Assembly: GCA_023132135.1 (NCBI GenBank)
Contig: JAGLYR010000027.1
Coordinates: forward strand, 1-18,253
Origin: Candidatus Eiseniibacteriota bacterium
GTDB lineage: Bacteria; Arandabacterota; Arandabacteria; JAGLYR01
Length of the DNA stretch: 18,253 nt
Reading direction: 5' to 3'
A program made the translations under genes and the position numbers. Below the pieces are notes generated by a model that saw only the letters and a program-made list of their open reading frames with translations, was not told the DNA's origin and did not search any database. Below are positions 1 through 18,253 of this stretch, piece by piece. Positions within the stretch are counted from its first letter, which is position 1, and every line of letters starts with the position of its first letter.

Positions 1-993
1 CTCCAGTTCCAGATCCACATCGAGAACACATGTCCGACACCATATCCGCTGACGATCCCGCTGGAGCTCTCCGCAAGCAAGGGCGAGATCTCGGCGGCCG
101 CCTGTGACGCCTGGGTCCCCGGACCCCTGGACACGGACTTCGAAGATGGCGAGGAGGGCTACTGGACCCACGAGGCCATCACCTTCGGGTACGTCGACCA
201 GTGGCGCCTGGTGGACAACAAGAGCTACGGTGATGGTACCCACAGCTGGAAATTCGGCGCCGTTCCGGGCGAGGGCTACTACGCCGACTACGCCGACGGC
301 GGGTTGATCACGCCGCTCGTGTGCCTGTCGGGTTCGGACACGCTGGAATTCTGGCACCGGATGCGGGCGGAAGAGGGCAGTGCGACGACAGCCTGGGACG
401 GTGGTTTCGTGGAGATATCGGTGGATGGAAGCCAGACGTGGCAGCAGATCGCACCCATGGGCGGCTACCCGTACACGATCATCGACAACCCCGACAGCCC
501 CTTCGATGCGGGAACGCCGTGCTGGTCGGGAATCAAGTCCTGGGAGTTCGCCCAGTTCAATCTTGCCGGCGTCACCGGACCCGCGCAGTTCCGGTTCCGT
601 TTCGGATCGGACGGATACGTGACCGCAGCCGGCTGGTGGGTCGATGAGGTCGTTCTGAAGACGGAGACGTCCACAGCCACACCGGAGGAAATGGTGCTCC
701 TAGGCAGCGGACCTGCGGATTTCGCCCTGTCGCAGAACCGGCCGAATCCGTTTAACCCGGTCACCACCATTCGATATGCGGTGCCGAAGGAGAGTGACGT
801 GTCCATCACGGTATTCAACGTGCTGGGGCAACAGGTCAGGAGGCTGGTGGACGAAGTCAGGCCCGCCGGCTACCATGAAGTGGCCTGGGACGGAAGGGAT
901 GCCCGCGGCCGCGAGATTGCCTCCGGAATCTACTTCTACCGGATGGAGAGCGGGACGTTCACGGCTGTAAAAAGGATGATCGTTCTGAAATGA
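1..993 (+). CDS. Secreted protein with C-terminal FlgD-Ig-like / T9SS-like sorting domain (5' partial)
   Basis: Frame 1 is open from the first base of the window to the TGA at 991-993, so the gene starts upstream; the GTG at 211 is only an internal codon. The visible 330 residues begin with a beta-rich segment, then a jelly-roll-like domain whose closing motif GWWVDEVVL resembles the end of the beta-sandwich modules found in secreted metallopeptidases of immune-inhibitor-A type. No catalytic residues are visible in this fragment, so the enzymatic identity is unknown. The C-terminus (about residues 240-330) is a typical FlgD-Ig-like sorting domain: LSQNRPNPFNPVTTIRYAVP, then VFNVLGQQVRRL, WDGRDARGREIASGIYFYR and a basic end KRMIVLK. 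In FCB bacteria this domain directs outer-membrane translocation by the type IX system. The stop overlaps the next start (ATGA), suggesting translational coupling. Confidence 0.85.
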   Translation, partial: LQFQIHIENTCPTPYPLTIPLELSASKGEISAAACDAWVPGPLDTDFEDGEEGYWTHEAITFGYVDQWRLVDNKSYGDGTHSWKFGAVPGEGYYADYADGGLITPLVCLSGSDTLEFWHRMRAEEGSATTAWDGGFVEISVDGSQTWQQIAPMGGYPYTIIDNPDSPFDAGTPCWSGIKSWEFAQFNLAGVTGPAQFRFRFGSDGYVTAAGWWVDEVVLKTETSTATPEEMVLLGSGPADFALSQNRPNPFNPVTTIRYAVPKESDVSITVFNVLGQQVRRLVDEVRPAGYHEVAWDGRDARGREIASGIYFYRMESGTFTAVKRMIVLK

Positions 994-2624
994 TAGAACT
1001 GACGGAGATATCCCTCACCAGGGTGAGCGCGATTGCGGTTCTGCTGGTCTTGATCTGGTCAATACCATTACTTGCCGTCCAATCGGAGATGACGTTGATC
1101 GATGCAAGGACCGGCAAGGTGATCACCGTGATCGAGGAGGTTTCACCGGATTCGGCGACCGATCTCCTGCGGTTCGCGTACGACAAAGCCAAGACCGGGC
1201 TGAACTGGGAAGCCGGCGCTGAATGGGCAATATGCAAATCGGTCTGCATCAGCGATGCGACCTACCATTCATTCATCGGCTGGCATACGAACGACCAGGC
1301 ATGGGCGTTCTTCAACGATACCGTCAATATCCCCGTCTGGGAATACGGCCTCGGGGACGTGGATGATCTGCCTCACGACATTACTTCCGATGGGACATGC
1401 ATGGCCGGCGGGACGGGGAATACGCTTTACGGATTCGACCCGTCTTCCAGCGTACCCGATTGGGTGTATCCCATAAGCATTCCAGGTGATGAGGTATATG
1501 ATCTGTTGTTGTCCGACGACGCCGAGACGATCTATTACGTATCCGGCGATGCTTTCGACCACATGAACATCACATCCGTGAACTTGACGACGTTCGCAGA
1601 GAACTGGAGTCATGCCCTCCCGGAGAATGGATATGTATGGGGCTCCGCCTTGTCGGGAAACGGCGAAAGGCTGGTGGTCCTGCAATACAGCTGGGTCACG
1701 GTCTATTCAAGCAGTGGCGACGTGCTGTTTCAAATCGAGAGGGGTACCGGCTCCCAGACGACTCCCGCCATTTCCGACGACGGAAACATATTCGTCATCG
1801 GTGATTACCACGGGTATGTGGATGTGTACGAATACGACGCCGGCGCCGGCACCTACGGGGCCAAATGGCAGTATCTGTTCGAGTGGGGCGTTTATTATGA
1901 TTGGGTGACGGCGCTCGCCGTCTCCGGAGACGGCGGCACGATTGCGGCCGGCTCGTACCAGAACGATGGCGGTGGTCAGTACAGCGGCGAACTGGCGTTG
2001 TTCGATGTCGCCAGCAACGTGCCGATATGGGTTTTTTCGTCCGGGGATGACCAGATTGCCGATGCCGACATATCGGCAGACGGTTCCGTGATCGCAGCAG
2101 TCGGTTGGGGACCCCTGGAAGACGGAGGCGATGATTTCTGGCTCTTCAACAGGGACAGCAACACACCATTCCTGGCATACGATTGCACCGGTTCACCGTT
2201 CGATCTTGATATGTCCAGCGATGGCGCAAGATGCATCGTGGGCGGCAAGGCCGTTCACGCAAGGACGATGGGGCATGGCGGCAAACTGTACTGTTTCGAC
2301 AGCAGCGGCCCCACCGGCGTCGATGATCCGGGGACCGATGTGCCGAGCAGGTGCGCGTTGTTGCAGAATCATCCCAATCCCTTCAATCCGCTGACGACGT
2401 TCACCTACTTCCTGACGGCGCCGGGACACGTCCGGCTTGCCATCTACGACCTCGAGGGCAGGCTGGTCGCCACGGTTGTCGACGATTCCGGACAGCCGGG
2501 TCGTGGATCCGCTGTCTGGGACGGGAGGGACGGCCGCGGCGAGGCGGTGGCGTCGGGAGTGTATTTTGCGCGACTGGAAGCGGGCAGAAACGTGGATACG
2601 AGAAAGATCACCCTGGCCAGATGA
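990..2624 (+). CDS. Secreted PQQ/WD40-like beta-propeller protein with sorting domain
   Basis: A 544-aa protein starting at the ATG at 990, which overlaps the preceding TGA by four bases. The N-terminus has a hydrophobic stretch (about residues 12-30, VSAIAVLLVLIWSIPLLAV) that fits a signal peptide or anchor. The body is a series of beta-propeller-like blades with recurring S-x-D-G phrases such as AISDDGNIFVIGDYHG, AVSGDGGTIAAGSYQN, DISADGSVIAAVGWG and DMSSDGARCIVGGKA, as seen in PQQ/WD40-like secreted proteins. It ends in a FlgD-Ig-like sorting domain beginning near N460 (LLQNHPNPFNPLTT), followed by IYDLEGRLVATVV, WDGRDGRGEAVASGVYFAR and TRKITLAR. No catalytic motif is visible; a binding or structural role is inferred. 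It is probably co-transcribed with both neighbours. Confidence 0.85.
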   Translation: MIELTEISLTRVSAIAVLLVLIWSIPLLAVQSEMTLIDARTGKVITVIEEVSPDSATDLLRFAYDKAKTGLNWEAGAEWAICKSVCISDATYHSFIGWHTNDQAWAFFNDTVNIPVWEYGLGDVDDLPHDITSDGTCMAGGTGNTLYGFDPSSSVPDWVYPISIPGDEVYDLLLSDDAETIYYVSGDAFDHMNITSVNLTTFAENWSHALPENGYVWGSALSGNGERLVVLQYSWVTVYSSSGDVLFQIERGTGSQTTPAISDDGNIFVIGDYHGYVDVYEYDAGAGTYGAKWQYLFEWGVYYDWVTALAVSGDGGTIAAGSYQNDGGGQYSGELALFDVASNVPIWVFSSGDDQIADADISADGSVIAAVGWGPLEDGGDDFWLFNRDSNTPFLAYDCTGSPFDLDMSSDGARCIVGGKAVHARTMGHGGKLYCFDSSGPTGVDDPGTDVPSRCALLQNHPNPFNPLTTFTYFLTAPGHVRLAIYDLEGRLVATVVDDSGQPGRGSAVWDGRDGRGEAVASGVYFARLEAGRNVDTRKITLAR

Positions 2625-2678
2625 TACGGGCCAAGGGGCCGACCTGGATGGAACACGCAATGGAGGAGGACTGACGTC

Positions 2679-4169
2679 ATGAAAAGAACAGTGTTCTTGG
2701 TCAGCCACCTTGTCCTGTTCGTAGCGGCCATGGTAATAGCACAGTTGCCCGGTGACGCCTTGTGGACGAGGACATACGGGGATGCTGATTGGAATTGCGG
2801 CCGCTGTGTTCAACCGACATCCGACGGAGGGTATATCATTGCCGGATTCACATTCACGTCCGGCACCGGCCAGGATATCTATCTGATCAAGACCGACGAT
2901 GTCGGGGATACGTTGTGGACCAAGTGCATTCGTGGCGAAGGCAGCGATGACGCGAAATCCATCCAGGAATTGCCGGGCGGCGGATATGTTATCGCCGGCA
3001 ACACGCAGGTGCCGGGTATATTCGGCTGTGACATCTATCTCATCAGAACGGATGCGGACGGAGACACCATATGGACGAAGAAATACGGGGATTCCGAAGC
3101 CATGGGCACGGGCACCAACAACGGCAATTGTGTCGAGCGAACATCCGATGGCGGCTACATCATAGCGGGATGGTCTCAATTCCAGGGGCCATACAATGAA
3201 GATGTCTGGCTCATCAAGACGGATGCGGACGGAGACAGTCTGTGGTCCAGGTTCTTCGGCGGAGCGGCCTATGATATGGCATATACGGTGGAGCAGACCT
3301 CCGACGACGGATACATCGCCGTTGGCTACACCCTGTCTTTCGGCGAAGGCAATGAAGACGTATATCTCGTCAGAACGGATGCGCTCGGGAGTCTTGAATG
3401 GGCGAGAACGTATGGCGGGACGGGCGCCGACTACGGGCGTTGCGTCCGCCAGACATCCGACGGCGGGTATATCATCACGGGATATACGAGCTCATTCGGG
3501 GCCGGCGGATTTGACGTCTATCTCATAAGGACCGATGCCCTGGGTGACACTCTCTGGACGAGAACCTATGGCGGAGCGAACGACGACATATCCTATTCAC
3601 TTCAGCTGACTGCGGATGAAGGATACATCATCTCGGGAAAAACGACCTCTTTCGGCGCGGGCGACAACGATACGTATCTGATCAGGACGGACGCGAACGG
3701 TGATACCTTGTGGACCAAGACATACGGAGGAACGGGTACGGACAAGGGGTATTTCGTTCAGCTGACTCTCGATGGCGACTACATCGTAACAGGGGAAACG
3801 TCGTCGTATGGAGGAGGCGACTATGACGTCTTGCTGATGAAAGTCGGCGGCGAGGTGACCGGCATTGAAGACGACCAACCGATTCCGACAATGCCGTGCC
3901 TTCTTTCCCAGAACTACCCCAATCCCTTCAACCCCTCCACGGTCATCTCATACGACCTGCTGCAGGCATCGGATGTGGAAATAAACATCTATAGCCTGTC
4001 GGGAAGACGGGTGAAGACATTAGTAAGTGCGATTCAGGCGGCAGGGGCGCACAAAGTGATTTGGGACGGCAGGAATGATAAGGGTGAGGAAGTGTCCAGT
4101 GGCGTTTACGTCTGCAGGCTCGATGCCGGGGGGCATGTGCAGGCGCGGAAGATGGTCCTGACAAGATAG
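2679..4169 (+). CDS. Secreted seven-repeat beta-propeller-like protein with sorting domain
   Basis: A 496-aa protein; the start at 2679 is supported by a strong Shine-Dalgarno (GGAGGAGGA at 2662-2670). Residues 1-22 form a signal peptide (VFLVSHLVLFVAAMVIAQ). Residues about 25-390 consist of seven imperfect repeats of roughly 52 residues. Each combines a strand like TSDGGYIIAGYTSSFG, a segment like DVYLIRTDALGDTLW and a linker TRTYGG. Seven units suggest one closed seven-bladed propeller (inference). The family is common in FCB-group secretomes and usually has no assigned function. The sorting domain starts near N412 (SQNYPNPFNPSTVISYDLL) and ends ARKMVLTR. The gene lies 54 bp after the previous stop and is probably in the same operon. 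Confidence 0.85.
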   Translation: MKRTVFLVSHLVLFVAAMVIAQLPGDALWTRTYGDADWNCGRCVQPTSDGGYIIAGFTFTSGTGQDIYLIKTDDVGDTLWTKCIRGEGSDDAKSIQELPGGGYVIAGNTQVPGIFGCDIYLIRTDADGDTIWTKKYGDSEAMGTGTNNGNCVERTSDGGYIIAGWSQFQGPYNEDVWLIKTDADGDSLWSRFFGGAAYDMAYTVEQTSDDGYIAVGYTLSFGEGNEDVYLVRTDALGSLEWARTYGGTGADYGRCVRQTSDGGYIITGYTSSFGAGGFDVYLIRTDALGDTLWTRTYGGANDDISYSLQLTADEGYIISGKTTSFGAGDNDTYLIRTDANGDTLWTKTYGGTGTDKGYFVQLTLDGDYIVTGETSSYGGGDYDVLLMKVGGEVTGIEDDQPIPTMPCLLSQNYPNPFNPSTVISYDLLQASDVEINIYSLSGRRVKTLVSAIQAAGAHKVIWDGRNDKGEEVSSGVYVCRLDAGGHVQARKMVLTR

Positions 4170-4475: not shown

Positions 4476-7400
4476 ATGAGCCCGTCAACCCGGTCCACCT
4501 GGACACTTCTGCTTGTGCCGGTTCTCGTATCACCAGTATTGGCGTGGACGGTATGCCCGGGGCAAGCAATAGCCGCAGGTGAACCCTACGCCTGTGAAGA
4601 GAACCTGATAGAAGTGATGTTTGAATGGGGATCCGAAGTGCGTATCCGTGACGGAGTTCCGGTAGACCTGGCAACGAACGCTCTTGATGGTGTCGATCCG
4701 GTGCTCGAGAGAGCTGCCTGGTTTGAATGGCAGCGGATCTGTGATGTTCCGGAAGCGCGCCTGGATGAGATTCAGGCCCGCGGGGAAGCCAATTCCGGGA
4801 CGCCTGTGTACAACCTCAACAACATCTACCGTCTTCGGATTCCAAAAGAGTTGGATGTTTGGGAAATCAGCCGGGAACTGGAGGACCTCCCGGGCATTAT
4901 GCTTGCGCGGCCCGTTCCAAAACCGACCCCGGCGCCCATACCTTCTAATTGGGAATCCTCACAACAGCACTGCTATCCGGCGAGCGCGAACCCGACGGGG
5001 ATCGACGCCCAGTACGCCTGGACGCAGCCGGGAGGGGATGGAACCGGCGTCACCGTGTGCGATCTGGAGTACGGCTGGAAACTCCACGCGGACCTCAGCA
5101 AATTGCCGAGCTCCCAGATCAATCCGAATCCGCTCTTCTGGCCCGCCGGTGTCGATACCTTCCACGGTACGGCGGTGGTCGGCGAGATGGTCTCCGACGC
5201 GAACGGCTGGGGAACGAAGGGCATCTGCCATGGTTCCGGATTGAAGACGTGTGGAACGTACTATGGGAATCCTATTTCCTGGAACGTCCCGGGCGCCATG
5301 GCCTACGCGATTGCCGCCCTCGCGCCGGGTGACGTGATCGTCCTCGAGCAGCAGTGGGACTACTACGGCATCGGCGACCATATTCCTATCGAATGGTGGT
5401 TGGACTACTCTCCGAATCCCCAGTCCTACAATGGAGTCTACGCCGCAATCGTCAACGCGGTTTCCAACGGTATCCACGTGGTCGAAGCCGGTGGGAACAG
5501 CCGACTCACAAGTGTGGGTGTGGATACGGATTTGCTCACCTGGTACGGAGATTCAGGCGCCATCATCGTGGGTGCCGGCGGCGCCTGGGCCAACCTGAGT
5601 TATCCTTTCTTCCCCGAAGGAGATCTCGAGAGAATCTACATCTCGGCTTACGGTCCTCGATTCAGTCTCCAGGGATGGGGCGAGAGTGTGCTGACCACCG
5701 GGTACGGCACGTACTATCAGGAACCGCCGACCGACTACTACGATTACACGTCTACATTCAACGGCACTTCTGCCGCCGCCCCGATCGTGGCAGGAGCGGT
5801 GGCCTGTTGTGTCGGCCATTGGACGGCGACGGTATCTCCGACTCCGCCCTCCACCGAGTACGTGCGGAATCTTCTGGTCACTACGGGGACGCCCCAGAGA
5901 TTCGGACCTCCGGGACACATCGGTCCCCGACCCAATCTTCTCGCAGCCTTCAACGCGATGTCTACTCAGTGGACGGATCGGACTCATGGTCCATTCGCCA
6001 ATACCAGTAACGGAGAAGGTGTAGCATGGGGTGACTACGACGGGGATGGGGATCAGGATGTCTACATCACCAACCAGAACGGCACAAACGTGCTCTGCCG
6101 GAACGACGCCGGAACATTCGTGGACGCCACCTCCACCCCCGTAGGCGGAGCGGTGAACAGCTGGGGCGCCGCGTGGGGGGACTATGAGAACGATGGAGAT
6201 GTTGACCTCTACGTGGCGAATCACGGCGTTTCCAACCACATGTTCCGGAATGACGGATGGGGCTTCTCCGATGCTACCTATGGTCCCTTGGGAGATACGG
6301 GATCCGGACGATGCGTCGCGTGGGCGGACTACGACCTGGACGGGGATATCGACCTTTTCCTGGCGAGACTCAGCCAATCAGACAAACTCCTCCGGAACGA
6401 CGGCGGGGGAAGCTTCACGGACGTGACGAGCACTCCTCTGGGAGATGCGGGATATGCCCACGGTATCGCCTGGGGAGATTACGACAACGATGGAGATCCG
6501 GACCTTTTTGTCTCAAACGGGGGGGCTAGTAAGCTCTACCGAAACGACGGCGGCGGGAGCTTCACCGACGTCACTCCTGCGTTGCTCGTGGGAACGAACC
6601 GTGAAACCGGACCGGCATGGGGAGATTATGACAACGACGGCGACCTGGATCTCTTCGTGGCCAATGACAACTACAACGGAAATCGCCTTTTTCGCAACGA
6701 GGGAGGTGGAACCTTCTCGGATCAGACGTCGGCCGTGTTGATGGGGAGTAGCACCAACTACAAGAACCCCGCGTGGGGCGACTATGACAACGACGGCGAC
6801 CTGGATCTCTTCGTGTCGAATGGGAGCGGTTTCAACAAGCTGTTCCGAAATGACGGGGCCGGGAGCTTCTACGATGCGACCACCGGGCCTTTGGGCGCCG
6901 TCTACGGCGGCATGGGTGCGGCGTGGGCCGACTACGACGGGGACGGCGATCTCGATCTTTGCGTCGCCAATCTGGGTGCCGCGAACAAGCTGTTCAGGAA
7001 TGACGTTGGTATCGCCAACCACTGGCTGCACATCAATCTGGTGGGAATCCAGTCGAACAAGTCGGGGATCGGAGCGCGGGTCCGCGCAGTCTCAGGTAAC
7101 TTGTCACAGATCCGCGAGGTCTCGGGCGGTTCCGGATGGTGTTCACAGAATTCCCTGACGGTTGAGTTCGGGGTGGGTCACCGAACGAAAGTGGATACCG
7201 TTGAGATCTTCTGGCCCGGAGGGACGCGAGGCGGAGTGCAGCGGCTCTTTGATGTGGCTGTCGATCAGGTTCTCACCGTTGAGGAGGAAGCGTTCGCCGC
7301 CGTTGAGGATGTCGCGTATGACAATCGGCCGGCAGTCTTCCGTCTCGATCGCAACTTCCCCAACCCCTTCAATCCGTCGACCACGATCCACTACTCGCTT

Positions 7401-7595
7401 CCAGAAGCAGGGCCGGTCCGAGTAGAAATCTTTGATGTGGCGGGGCGCCGAATTGCAGTCCTGGTGGATGAGGTACAGACCTCCGGGGAGAAGTACTTGC
7501 CGTGGAACGCGGAGGGGTTTGCGAGCGGGATCTATCTCCTTCGTGTGCAAGCGGGGAGTGATGTGGGGACGCGGAAGATGATTTTGCTCAAATAG
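4476..7595 (+). CDS. Subtilisin-like S8 serine protease with VCBS/FG-GAP repeats, ASPIC/UnbV domain and sorting domain
   Basis: A 1039-aa multidomain exported protein. The start at 4476 follows AAGGAGG at 4463-4469, and residues 1 to about 34 form a signal peptide. A propeptide-like region precedes the S8 peptidase domain (about 180-485). Its catalytic residues look intact: Asp196 in VTVCDLEYGW, His230 in FHGTAVVGEM, oxyanion Asn341 in EAGGNSR and nucleophile Ser432 in FNGTSAAAPIVAG. The Asp is followed by Leu-Glu rather than the common Thr/Ser-Gly. Seven FG-GAP/VCBS-type repeats of about 48 residues follow (first Asp520, last Asp819), each with a WGDYDNDGDLDLFVSN-like calcium-binding loop. 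An ASPIC/UnbV domain (about 850-915, NHWLHINLVG to VEIFWPGG) comes next. A FlgD-Ig-like sorting domain begins at N960 (NFPNPFNPSTTIHYSL) and ends TRKMILLK. It is likely a surface or released protease, substrate unknown. A hairpin terminator candidate follows. Confidence 0.92.
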   Translation: MSPSTRSTWTLLLVPVLVSPVLAWTVCPGQAIAAGEPYACEENLIEVMFEWGSEVRIRDGVPVDLATNALDGVDPVLERAAWFEWQRICDVPEARLDEIQARGEANSGTPVYNLNNIYRLRIPKELDVWEISRELEDLPGIMLARPVPKPTPAPIPSNWESSQQHCYPASANPTGIDAQYAWTQPGGDGTGVTVCDLEYGWKLHADLSKLPSSQINPNPLFWPAGVDTFHGTAVVGEMVSDANGWGTKGICHGSGLKTCGTYYGNPISWNVPGAMAYAIAALAPGDVIVLEQQWDYYGIGDHIPIEWWLDYSPNPQSYNGVYAAIVNAVSNGIHVVEAGGNSRLTSVGVDTDLLTWYGDSGAIIVGAGGAWANLSYPFFPEGDLERIYISAYGPRFSLQGWGESVLTTGYGTYYQEPPTDYYDYTSTFNGTSAAAPIVAGAVACCVGHWTATVSPTPPSTEYVRNLLVTTGTPQRFGPPGHIGPRPNLLAAFNAMSTQWTDRTHGPFANTSNGEGVAWGDYDGDGDQDVYITNQNGTNVLCRNDAGTFVDATSTPVGGAVNSWGAAWGDYENDGDVDLYVANHGVSNHMFRNDGWGFSDATYGPLGDTGSGRCVAWADYDLDGDIDLFLARLSQSDKLLRNDGGGSFTDVTSTPLGDAGYAHGIAWGDYDNDGDPDLFVSNGGASKLYRNDGGGSFTDVTPALLVGTNRETGPAWGDYDNDGDLDLFVANDNYNGNRLFRNEGGGTFSDQTSAVLMGSSTNYKNPAWGDYDNDGDLDLFVSNGSGFNKLFRNDGAGSFYDATTGPLGAVYGGMGAAWADYDGDGDLDLCVANLGAANKLFRNDVGIANHWLHINLVGIQSNKSGIGARVRAVSGNLSQIREVSGGSGWCSQNSLTVEFGVGHRTKVDTVEIFWPGGTRGGVQRLFDVAVDQVLTVEEEAFAAVEDVAYDNRPAVFRLDRNFPNPFNPSTTIHYSLPEAGPVRVEIFDVAGRRIAVLVDEVQTSGEKYLPWNAEGFASGIYLLRVQAGSDVGTRKMILLK

Positions 7596-13926: not shown

Positions 13927-13957
13927 TTGCAAGTCCAAGCCATTCTGTGGTAGAATG
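13927..13957 (+). promoter_or_regulatory. Promoter of the HMG-CoA synthase operon with overlapping palindrome
   Basis: TTGCAA (13927-13932, 4/6), 18-bp spacer, TAGAAT (13951-13956, 5/6). A perfect inverted repeat CATTCT-GTGGT-AGAATG (13941-13957) overlaps the -10 box and could be an operator. The leader to the ATG at 14018 is about 55 nt, with AGGAAGGAG at 14002-14010. Confidence 0.55.
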
Positions 13958-14017
13958 CGCGTCTTTGGGTGAGTAACTGCTCCCTTTCCCCTACGACATC
14001 CAGGAAGGAGTGCGAGC

Positions 14018-15070
14018 ATGGCAGGTATTGTCGGCTACGGGGCATATGTTCCGAGGCACCGGATCACGGTGGAGGAAATCGCCAAGATCTGGAGCGCGGA
14101 CGCGCCGAGCTACAAGCGAGGCCTCCAGCTGCGGCAGAAGTCTGTTCCTGCACCCGACCAGGACACCGTCACCATGTCCGTCGAGGCAGCCAGGAACGCA
14201 CTGAAACGAGCGCAGATCGACCCAATGAAGATCGGAGCTCTCTACATCGGCTCCGAGTCGCATCCCTACGCTGTGAAACCCAGCGGCACCACGGTCGCAG
14301 AGGCCATTGGCGCCACACCCGAGGTCCATTGCGCTGATCTCGAGTTCGCGTGCAAGGCTGGCTCCGAGGGTATGTTTGTGGCACTGGGGTTGGTTCGGGC
14401 GGGTCTCATCGAATACGGGATGGGCATCGGCGCAGATACTTCCCAGGGTGCGCCCGGGGATGCCCTCGAGTATTCCGCGGCAGCCGGGGCGGCGGCCTTT
14501 ATCTTCGGCAAGGACAACCTGGTCGCCGAAGTGGAAGAAACCTACTCCTACATGACCGATACCCCGGATTTCTGGCGGCGCGAGTATCAGTTCTACCCGG
14601 AGCACGCCGGCAGGTTCACCGGCGAGCCCGCCTACTTCAAGCATGTCCTGGGCTGCGCCAAGGGCATCATGAAAAAGGCCGGGGCCACGCCCAAGGATTT
14701 CGCATACATCGTCTGCCACCAGCCCAACGGCAAGTTCCCTCAGAGAGTGGGCAAGATGCTGGGATTCAGCAAGAAGCAGATCGAGCCGGGTTGGCTCGCC
14801 CCGACTCTCGGAAACACGTATTCGGGATCGTCTCCCATGGGACTCAGTGCCATACTGGACATAGCGAAACCCGGCGACCGGATCCTGATGGTCTCCTATG
14901 GCTCGGGCGCCGGCAGCGATGGGTTCATCTTCAAAGCCACCGATCGGTTACCGGAAGTCCGGGACCTGGCTCCGAAGACCCGGGAGTTGCTGGACAACAA
15001 CCAGATTTACCTTGAGTACGGTACCTATGCGAAGTTCCGCGGCAAGATTCGAAGAGCCCGCGAACTCTAG
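14018..15070 (+). CDS. Hydroxymethylglutaryl-CoA synthase, archaeal type
   Basis: A 350-aa thiolase-fold enzyme that condenses acetyl-CoA with acetoacetyl-CoA to HMG-CoA. The start at 14018 follows AGGAAGGAG (14002-14010). Length and sequence match the short archaeal type (about 350 aa), not the longer Firmicutes MvaS. The catalytic triad is visible: Glu80 (LYIGSES), Cys112 ([13 protein letters not shown]) and His234 ([15 protein letters not shown]). The glycine-rich end [14 protein letters not shown] is also typical. In archaea this enzyme forms one complex with acetoacetyl-CoA thiolase and a DUF35 protein, and exactly those two genes follow here. The next start is 17 bp after its stop. Direction of flux (biosynthetic or degradative) cannot be read from sequence. 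Confidence 0.93.
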
Positions 15071-15086
15071 AGGAGGGACAATTCCA

Positions 15087-16244
15087 ATGAGAGAGGTCGC
15101 AATCATTGGCGTCGGGATGACCAACTGGGGCGAGCTGTGGGAGAAAGCTCTGCGCGACATCTACGTGGAGTCCGCGCTGCTGGCCATCAACGACGCCGGC
15201 GTCGACCACATTGATTCCATGTACGTCGGAAGTATGACCAGCGGGATCTTTGTCGGGCAGGAGCATCTGGCTTCCCAGCTGGCCGACTACCTCGGCGTAC
15301 TACCCATTCCGGCGGCTCGGGTCGAGAGCGCCTGCGCGTCCGGCGCTCTGGCGGTGCGGATGGGTTTCATGGATGTTGCTTCCGGGCTGAACGACATCGT
15401 CCTTGTCTCCGGCGTGGAGAAGATGACGGACGTCACCGGTGGCGATGCCACCTACGCGCTGGGCACGGCAGCCGACCAGGAATACGAGTGCTTCAACGGG
15501 ATCACCTTCCCGGGTCTCTATGCCATGATGGCCCGGGCCTACATGGACCGTTACGGAATGACCCGGGAGCAGCTGGCCCATGTGTCGGTCAAGAACCACC
15601 AGAACGGGTCGCTCAACCCGCGAGCCCAGTTCCCCATGAAGGTCACGGTGGAACAGGTTATGGACTCCGTGATGATAGCCGATCCACTGAGGATTCTTGA
15701 CTGCTCCCCCATCACAGACGGAGCGGCCGCCGCCATCCTCTGTCCTCTGGAGATGGCGTCGAAATTGAGCGACAAGCCACCCGTCAAGATTGTGGGCACG
15801 GGGGCCGCGACCGATACCCTCGCCTACCACGGGAGCGAGGACCTGACGGTCCTGGCCGCCACCGTCAAGGCCGCCGAGATGGCCTACAAAATGGCAGGCG
15901 TGGGTCCGGAGGATATCGATCTGGCGGAAGTGCACGACTGCTTCACCATCGCGGAGGTCGTCGTAATCGAAGATTTGGGGCTGGTGGAAAAAGGCGAAGG
16001 GAAATCCGCCGCCGAATCGGGACTCACAGCTCTGGGCGGCAAGATTCCTGTCAACACGAGCGGCGGCCTGAAATCCAAAGGCCACCCGGTGGGCGCCACG
16101 GGTGTGGGTCAGATCGTCGAGCTCACCGAGCAGCTGCGTGGGGAGTCCGGCGACCGGCAGTGCGGCAGTCCGAAGCGTGCCTTGGCCCAGAACATGGGCG
16201 GTTCCGGCGGCTCAGCCGTCGTTCACATTGTGGAGGTGGTCTAA
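15087..16244 (+). CDS. Acetyl-CoA acetyltransferase (thiolase), archaeal/SCP2-like type
   Basis: A 385-aa thiolase. The ATG at 15087 is chosen because AGGAGG (15071-15076) precedes it and the protein then begins with the family sequence [15 protein letters not shown]. The catalytic Cys83 lies in [15 protein letters not shown]. The downstream motifs are [10 protein letters not shown] (second-site His) and [20 protein letters not shown] (general-base His of the GHPxGATG motif). The family interconverts two acetyl-CoA with acetoacetyl-CoA and, in the archaeal complex, passes acetoacetyl-CoA directly to HMG-CoA synthase through a shared CoA site. The reaction is near equilibrium and favours cleavage, which the coupled synthase would overcome. 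It is followed after one base by the DUF35 gene. Confidence 0.93.
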
Positions 16245-16245
16245 T

Positions 16246-16635
16246 ATGTCTTCGCCTAAATTCTGGAGGGAAATCCCGCAGCGGTACCGCATGGAGGCAG
16301 GCAAGTGCAGCAAGTGCGGGAAGGTCTTCTTCCCGCCCAGACTGGTATGCTCCAGTTGCAAGGGGCAGGACTTCGAGACGATCCGCCTTGCCGGCACGGG
16401 AAGGGTGGCTACATATACTGTGATCCGCGTGTCGGCGACCCAGTTCGCCGATGAAGTTCCCTTTGCCGTCGGGGTGATCGACATGGATGAGGGCGTTCGG
16501 CTCACATCCCAGATCGTGGACTGTGATCCCGAGTCGGTGAAAACCGGGATGCCGGTCAAGATCGAGTTCCGGAAAGTGCAAGAGGAGGGCAAGGCGGGTA
16601 TTCTGTGCTACGGGTACAAATGCGTGCCCGCGTGA
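16246..16635 (+). CDS. Zn-ribbon / OB-fold DUF35 protein of the thiolase/HMG-CoA synthase complex
   Basis: A 129-aa protein starting at 16246, one base after the thiolase stop, with GGAGG at 16232-16236 inside the thiolase gene. The N-terminus carries a zinc ribbon, CSKCGKVFFPPRLVCSSC (Cys pairs four and fourteen residues apart). It is followed by an OB-fold half with GTGRVATYTVIRVSATQF and the closing GMPVKIEFRKV. DUF35 proteins are non-catalytic subunits that hold thiolase-fold enzymes together; the archaeal one bridges acetoacetyl-CoA thiolase and HMG-CoA synthase, and BbsA plays a similar part with its thiolase in benzylsuccinate degradation. Position and spacing strongly support a role as scaffold for the two preceding enzymes. 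Confidence 0.92.
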   Translation: MSSPKFWREIPQRYRMEAGKCSKCGKVFFPPRLVCSSCKGQDFETIRLAGTGRVATYTVIRVSATQFADEVPFAVGVIDMDEGVRLTSQIVDCDPESVKTGMPVKIEFRKVQEEGKAGILCYGYKCVPA

Positions 16636-16656
16636 TCCAGGGACGGGAGTGAGCGC

Positions 16657-18253
16657 GTGTACCGAATCGAAAGCAAAATCGACACCGGCAGTTCAGAGTT
16701 CAAGGAAAACCGGGACGCGATGCAAGCCGTTGTCCAGGAGCTCAAGGAGCACTTGACGGAGGTGAAGAAGGGCGGTCCCCCGAAGTATGTCGAACGCCAC
16801 AAGAAGCGGGGAAAGCTCACGGTTCGGGAACGTCTGGACCGTCTGTTCGACCGCAACACTCCCTTCCTGGAACTGAGCCCTCTGGCCGCGTGGGATATGT
16901 ACGACAACCAGTCGCCCGGAGCAGGAGTGGTGACCGGAGTCGGTGTGGTTCACGGACGGCAGGTGCTCGTGGTGGCCAACGACGCCACTGTCAAGGGGGG
17001 CACCTACTTCCCCATGACCATCAGGAAACACATCCGCGCCCAGGAAGTCGCATTGCAGAACCGTCTGCCCTGCGTCTATCTGGTGGACTCCGGCGGGATT
17101 TTCCTTCCTGAACAGGCCGGAACTTTCCCGGACAAGGAACACTTCGGGCGCATCTTCTACAACCAGGCTCGCCTCTCCGCCGAGAACATCGCTCAAGTTT
17201 CCATCGTGATGGGCTCCTGCACGGCCGGGGGCGCCTACGTTCCGGCCATGAGTGACGAGACTGTGATCGTCCGCCGGCAGGGGACAATCTTCATCGGCGG
17301 CCCCCCGCTCGTAAAGGCAGCCACGGGTGAAGAGGTGACGGCTGAGGACCTGGGCGGCGCGGACGTCCACTGTCGCATCTCAGGCGTATCCGACCACTAT
17401 GCACTAAACGACGAACATGCTCTGGAGATCGCGCGGAACGTCATCGAGAACCTCGATCGTGCAAAACCATTCGAACTGGACTCTGCAGAACCCGAGGACC
17501 CGTACTACGATCCGGAGGAGATCTACGGCGTGGTACCCTGCGCCCTGCGCAGGCCATACGACATCCGGGAACTCATTGCCCGCCTCGTGGACGGTAGTCG
17601 TTTCCACGAGTTCAAGGAACTCTATGGTACTACCCTGGTCTGCGGGTTTGCCCGGATCATGGGATACCCGGTGGGAATTCTTGCAAACAACGGTGTCCTG
17701 TTTTCCGAATCCGCCCTCAAGGGCGCCCACTTCATAGAGCTGGCCACGATCCGGAAGATCCCCCTGCTTTTCCTTCAGAACATCACGGGGTTCATTGTCG
17801 GCAAGCAATACGAGCATGGCGGGATTGCGCGGGACGGGGCCAAGATGGTGCACGCTGTGGCCAACGCGGACGTTCCGAAGCTGACCGTGATCGTGGGCGG
17901 GTCCTACGGCGCCGGCAACTATGCCATGTGCGGTCGCGCCTACAACCCGAGGCTTGCATGGATGTGGCCCAACGCGCGGATTTCCGTGATGGGGGGCGAC
18001 CAGGCGGCGGATGTTCTTCTCCAGGTCAAGATGGACCAGATGGCCGCCAGGGGACAGAAGCCGATGTCGGAGAAAGAACAGGAGACGTTCCGCATTCCCA
18101 CGCTGGAGAAATATGAACGCGAGGGAAGCCCGTACTTCAGCACCGCGCGTTTGTGGGATGATGGCATCCTGGATCCCCTTGACACGCGGGAAGCCCTGGG
18201 GTTGGCCATCGCCATGTCGCTCAACGAGCCGATCCCGGATCAGAAGTACGGCG
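16657..18253 (+). CDS. Methylcrotonyl-CoA carboxylase, carboxyltransferase (beta) subunit (3' partial)
   Basis: The frame starts at GTG 16657 (GGAG at 16646-16649) and stays open to the window end, showing 532 residues. The family is about 535 aa, so only the last few residues are missing. The sequence is MCC-beta-like throughout: APGAG-type [47 protein letters not shown], the first oxyanion site [13 protein letters not shown] (about 186-198) and the second [17 protein letters not shown] (G418-A419-G420-N421). MCC carboxylates 3-methylcrotonyl-CoA to 3-methylglutaconyl-CoA in leucine/isovalerate breakdown, working with a biotin-carrying alpha subunit that should lie downstream. Geranyl-CoA carboxylase is a closely related alternative. 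Only 21 bp separate it from the DUF35 gene, so it is probably in the HMG-CoA synthase operon. Confidence 0.9.

Follow-up and report, generated by a model that had tools for sequence, protein, structure and literature searches.

What does an archaeal-type gene set for 3-hydroxy-3-methylglutaryl-CoA (HMG-CoA) synthesis do in a bacterium when it is followed by a gene for a subunit of methylcrotonyl-CoA carboxylase (MCC)? The question is raised by an 18,253-nucleotide stretch of Candidatus Eiseniibacteriota DNA, hereafter the window, which is the entire contig C190 (JAGLYR010000027.1) of a 3.4-Mb draft genome (345 contigs, 96% complete). At its right end, genes for HMG-CoA synthase, acetoacetyl-CoA thiolase and a DUF35 protein (hereafter the trio) precede a carboxyltransferase gene. 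In archaea, the complex formed by these three proteins serves the mevalonate pathway, and its favourable synthase step pulls the unfavourable thiolase step. We report here gene content and gene order, in the window and in other genomes, indicating that the right end of the window probably carries the first half of an operon for leucine/isovalerate catabolism, where the trio would run backwards and replace HMG-CoA lyase.

The trio and its attached carboxyltransferase

All four genes lie on the + strand: the archaeal-type HMG-CoA synthase (14018..15070, 350 aa), an SCP2-type acetoacetyl-CoA thiolase that is the synthase partner (15087..16244, 385 aa), a DUF35 scaffold protein with a zinc ribbon and an OB fold (16246..16635, 129 aa), and the MCC beta carboxyltransferase (16657..18252, 532 aa, GTG start), whose reading frame has no stop codon because the contig ends first. 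The gene order given by the initial annotation for positions 14018-18253 agrees with the reading frame coordinates. Two of the spacings that it listed (17, 1 and 21 bp) are exact, whereas the first is actually 16 bp.

The synthase scored 545 bits against TIGR00748 (cut-off 353), far above the archaeal equivalog threshold, and is 65% identical to the synthase of the archaeal complex (PDB 6esq_I, E 4.5e-145). The thiolase passed the subfamily model NF004720 (542 bits, cut-off 420), fell below the equivalog NF053570 (527 vs a cut-off of 600), and matched PDB 6esq_A with an E value of 1e-114. For the DUF35 protein, matches were obtained with PF12172, PF01796 and PDB 6esq_E (E 8e-32). Among solved structures, all three proteins are in this way closest to chains of the archaeal complex 6ESQ. 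Glu80, Cys112 and His234 of the synthase are invariant in 82 aligned sequences, and the thiolase residues Cys83, His283 and His333 are kept in 76-78 of 78. As to the carboxyltransferase, it scored 501 bits against PF01039 and 738-744 bits against solved MCC beta chains, compared to 452 bits for geranyl-CoA carboxylase and 290 bits for the next beta chain of propionyl-CoA carboxylase (PCC); its top solved relative, 9tps (760 bits), is a chain named PCC beta. By similarity, we assign it as the MCC beta subunit. The view taken at first inspection, of an archaeal-type set of adjacent genes with intact catalytic residues and an attached MCC beta subunit, was thus borne out by the profile cut-off passed, by the nearest chains (I, A and E) and by the alignments.

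Gene adjacency, nearest solved chains and intact catalytic residues are what the trio shares with the archaeal thiolase/HMGCS/DUF35 complex (Voegeli et al. 2018, as cited in PMC12329534). It differs in standing in a leucine-type operon, in a bacterium where HMG-CoA reductase was not detected, and in its proposed reverse operation as a putative complex.

The initial annotation had also hinted at a transfer from archaea. In a tree of 82 synthases (78 bacterial and four archaeal), all the bacterial sequences split from the archaeal ones with a support of 100/99, and the window synthase groups with two from Planctomycetota (88/84). Genomes bearing an HMG-CoA reductase are scattered through the tree. 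Since the window synthase sits inside the bacterial group, and other bacteria share the operon, the tree gives no support to a recent transfer from archaea into this lineage; archaeal sampling being thin, this conclusion covers recent transfer only.

Linkage to carboxyltransferase genes in other bacteria

Genomes were scanned with the synthase alone, and all locus counts below are based on the best 80 loci, out of at least 80 in all, nearly all of them bacterial. According to record names, they span more than 10 phyla, including Aminicenantes, Zixibacteria, Eisenbacteria, Coatesbacteria, Planctomycetota, Acidobacteria and Chlorobi/Ignavibacteria, with further records named Calditrichota, Gemmatimonadetes, Cloacimonadota, WOR-3/Stahlbacteria, Deltaproteobacteria and Bacteroidota. 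Markers mapped onto these loci showed the trio, ordered synthase, thiolase and DUF35, with MCC beta, crotonase, biotin carboxylase and carrier after it. Some operons also include an acyl-CoA dehydrogenase. The records with this order are named, among others, Aminicenantes, Zixibacteria, Coatesbacteria, WOR-3 and Deltaproteobacteria.

Linkage was counted in the 44 listed bacterial loci that lie outside the phylum of the source genome and show 6 kb or more of downstream sequence. In 24 of them, a carboxyltransferase of MCC or Gcd type was found within about 10 kb of the trio, on the same strand and downstream in 20; a crotonase was present in 22 and a downstream biotin carboxylase in 18. By a rough estimate of one such gene per ~3 Mb, chance would account for less than 1% of loci, so the linkage is not fortuitous. 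It is common rather than universal: close to half of the trios lack a visible carboxyltransferase. The link to the carboxylase proposed for the window is therefore conserved in many bacteria, together with the crotonase and the MCC biotin carboxylase and carrier.

PCC and epimerase genes adjoin some of the operons. In two relatives (G003 and G004) and in loci L075, L084 and L108, a GcdA-like carboxyltransferase fills the MCC beta slot, paired with a biotin carboxylase of a separate type. GcdA-like genes were located at L015:17640-19382, L017:4462-6255, L075:15189-16910, L084:6600-8324 and L108:14158-15891, and such a set near the trio is possibly a second kind of methylcrotonyl-CoA carboxylase. 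A gene of the AtuA family (PF07287, acyclic terpene utilisation) also occurs near the trio in several phyla, for instance at L078:8492-9853, and similar ones were seen in L081, L090, L099, L101, L114, L127 and L129.

Exits for HMG-CoA and direction of the pathway

What then becomes of HMG-CoA in these bacteria? The phylum is represented by 8 genomes in our collection, which were searched family by family. HMG-CoA reductase (PF00368) was found in 0 of the 8, while five control genomes were positive, and Dxr, of the methylerythritol phosphate (MEP) pathway, was found in 7, including the source genome. With NF004283, the one model on which the absence of HMG-CoA lyase rests, no match whatever was obtained in the source genome, and none of the 8 genomes scored above cut-off. 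The absence of a detected reductase and the presence of an MEP gene mean that the trio is not for mevalonate in this phylum, where such a role is rejected. With neither reductase nor lyase detected, the trio is the only recognised way out for HMG-CoA. The initial annotation had held that the linkage would be uninformative if the genome had a full mevalonate pathway using these genes and a separate complete leucine operon with a lyase; neither situation applies.

The rival view would be that the trio is a remnant or a part of a mevalonate pathway, linked to the carboxylase by chance. The archaeal complex does serve that pathway, and a reductase is present in six or seven of the 49 genomes with the trio. 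Given the results for the 8 genomes of the phylum, the carboxylase linkage in 24 of the 44 loci and the retention of the catalytic residues, we regard this explanation as very improbable.

The 49 trio-bearing genomes were partly picked for having operon genes, so that the unbiased estimate of linkage is the count over all loci given above. In 36 of them neither reductase nor lyase was detected (a weak reductase match not being counted), and 23 of these 36 have a carboxyltransferase in the locus. Three single-chromosome records (CP070825, CP070742 and CP070686) carry the whole operon and neither exit, which means that missing contigs are no explanation for the absence. No lyase was found within any listed trio locus (1.13 Mb). 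Reductase was rarer in linked genomes (1 of 23, compared to 4 of 12 unlinked ones; p = 0.04, kinship being ignored). The only linked genome with a reductase, that of L075, has it as a reductase/kinase fusion in the very locus of the trio and carboxylase. In three trio bacteria (L155:1444-3693, L156:397-2760 and L158:1387-3678), the reductase appears to be fused to a kinase-like C-terminal part, with a GHMP-type ending as judged by eye.

The remaining operon genes were looked for in the source genome and its relatives. Contig C143 of the source genome opens with a biotin carboxylase (L198:65-1564), closest to those in MCC operons elsewhere, and a biotin carrier (L198:1583-2089); it also encodes a CoA-transferase related to butyryl-CoA:acetate CoA-transferase, below the cut-off for that family. 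Complete operons place the crotonase between the carboxyltransferase and the biotin carboxylase, with the carrier last. It is therefore plausible that C190 and C143 are neighbours, separated by a gap in the assembly where the crotonase would be hidden. A short repeat at the start of C143 (L198:1-25), just before the MCC biotin carboxylase gene, is a likely cause of the assembly break. Four relatives from another family of the phylum (G001, G003, G004 and G005) have a crotonase beside the trio; this hydratase is nearest to gamma-carboxygeranoyl-CoA hydratase, below cut-off, and naming it through solved structures was uninformative. Three acyl-CoA dehydrogenases are present in the source genome, and the one that was named is nearest to acryloyl-CoA reductase, again below cut-off. 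In the relative G003, a single 230-kb contig carries a 2-oxoacid oxidoreductase, a mutase, PCC, acyl-CoA dehydrogenases, ETF-like proteins, an ELFV-family amino-acid dehydrogenase and a butyrate kinase. On the same genome, a CRISPR gene set that looks Cascade-type by eye from the reading frames, with a repeat array, precedes the trio (L015:2513-9863).

In the pathway that we propose, isovaleryl-CoA would arise from leucine by deamination and oxidative decarboxylation, or from isovalerate through activation by a CoA-transferase. An acyl-CoA dehydrogenase would convert isovaleryl-CoA into 3-methylcrotonyl-CoA, which MCC (beta subunit on C190, biotin carboxylase and carrier on C143) would carboxylate to 3-methylglutaconyl-CoA, to be hydrated by the crotonase into HMG-CoA. 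The reversed synthase would then use CoA to cleave HMG-CoA, giving acetyl-CoA and acetoacetyl-CoA; the latter would at once be cut by the thiolase into two acetyl-CoA, the net reaction being HMG-CoA + 2 CoA to 3 acetyl-CoA. Of the two steps, thiolysis of acetoacetyl-CoA is the favourable one and synthase reversal the unfavourable one, and they would be physically coupled. With the coupling reversed, no free acetoacetate would be released and no cost would be paid for activating it. As the trio occupies the place in the operon where the lyase is expected, reverse operation is the simplest explanation. Breakdown is the direction favoured by the context, that is by the ATP-using biotin carboxylase, the PCC and epimerase neighbours and the catabolic genes on the G003 contig. 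We infer the flux direction, the existence of a hydratase in the source genome, the join between C190 and C143 and the energy argument.

Several observations speak against breakdown by a reversed trio. HMG-CoA synthase is commonly regarded as working, in practice, only towards HMG-CoA. Lyase was found above cut-off in 7 of the 49 genomes, four of them with a carboxyltransferase in the locus, and a full-length HMG-CoA reductase in 6, plus one weak match. Lyase is not rarer with linkage (3 of 23 linked genomes and 2 of 12 unlinked ones, p = 1), so the lyase count alone fails to single out the linked genomes. No operon-type hydratase was found in the source genome, whose contigs break at the expected place, and its sole hydratase-family match, on C326, is a crotonase of general type with 33-35% identity. 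Finally, the attempt to identify an acyl-CoA dehydrogenase specific for isovaleryl-CoA failed.

Because of the view on irreversibility, of the hydratase and dehydrogenase that were not found and of the genomes with both trio and lyase, the biosynthetic direction keeps a real probability, and it is the main rival. The trio would make HMG-CoA from three acetyl-CoA, the crotonase would dehydrate it to methylglutaconyl-CoA, and decarboxylation and reduction would lead to isovaleryl-CoA and iso-branched fatty acids, much as in myxobacteria. This is the normal, thermodynamically easy direction of synthase and thiolase, and the absence of reductase and lyase is equally compatible with it; a related pathway linking HMG-CoA synthase to methylglutaconyl-CoA has been described (PMC9636800). 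We nevertheless hold it unlikely, as the carboxylase comes with an ATP-using biotin carboxylase and a carrier, the usual set for carboxylation, the neighbouring genes are catabolic, and the most frequent gene clusters of the loci include no AibA/B-like or AibC-like family (no genome-wide AibAB search was made). It might also be that HMG-CoA, supplied by MCC and the hydratase, is cleaved by a lyase escaping recognition, with the trio used for something else, such as acetoacetyl-CoA recycling or another product. The use of a single lyase model, the seven genomes having trio and lyase together, and the reductase fusion that shares the L075 locus with trio and carboxylase all go in this direction, whereas the absence of lyase holds in single-chromosome records and distant phyla, and the position of the trio in the operon is constant. 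We consider this possibility doubtful, and a little less likely than biosynthesis. The initial annotation had left two directions side by side: its first, breakdown, is the one best supported by gene context, and its second, synthesis, stays as the rival.

Lyase-free breakdown of leucine or isovalerate, with the trio reversed and three acetyl-CoA but no free acetoacetate as products, is thus the reading that we prefer for the window; with somewhat less assurance, we lean towards the same reading for the bacteria of more than 10 phyla that carry the trio.

Neighbouring features, related pathways and implications

The gene upstream of the synthase is divergently oriented. Ahead of the synthase gene, a promoter-like site (13927..13956, + strand) combines TTGCAA, an 18-nt spacer, TAGAAT and an extended -10 TG, 61 bp before the first start codon; it is a consensus match only, found once compared to 0.1 expected from shuffled sequences. 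A ribosome-binding-like sequence, AGGAAGGAG, can be read off the sequence at 14002..14010 (+ strand). Farther upstream, positions 1-4169 and 4476-7595 encode secreted-type proteins with C-terminal 'NPFNP' sorting-like tails, and one window protein of 1039 aa combines a subtilase domain, FG-GAP repeats and an ASPIC/UnbV domain.

Among known pathways, the Liu pathway (liuABCDE, with the regulator liuR) has the same intermediates, MCC subunits and crotonase, and sometimes the acyl-CoA dehydrogenase, in common with the trio operons. Its final step is the lyase, giving acetyl-CoA and acetoacetate (PMC9636800). In contrast, this lyase, LiuE, was not detected in the genomes of the phylum, where the trio stands in its place, and in trio operons the biotin carboxylase and the carrier are separate proteins. 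The myxobacterial route to isovaleryl-CoA (HMG-CoA synthase, LiuC, AibA/B/C) likewise joins a synthase to methylglutaconyl-CoA chemistry, but the trio operon has MCC instead of AibA/B, plus catabolic neighbours; the synthase of that route belongs to another family than the window synthase. That a 'synthase' which releases CoA can serve for CoA-dependent cleavage has a precedent, by analogy only since enzyme and pathway are unrelated, in the citrate synthase that runs in reverse in the roTCA (reversed oxidative tricarboxylic acid) cycle of Desulfurella (PMC11861179). In the literature searched, which was limited to open papers and left out subscription ones, we found no account of a leucine pathway that does without the lyase by means of this complex.

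Annotation tends to read such a synthase as a mevalonate gene, and leucine degradation as incomplete when the lyase is missing. The comparison of loci suggests, but does not prove, that the finding extends beyond the window, to a conserved lyase-free variant of the leucine pathway. If this is true, a large set of uncultured bacteria would have a leucine pathway that spares acetoacetate activation, mevalonate synthesis, the role for which the complex is best known, would be only one of its two natural directions, and a complex regarded as a one-way biosynthetic machine would be reversible in nature.

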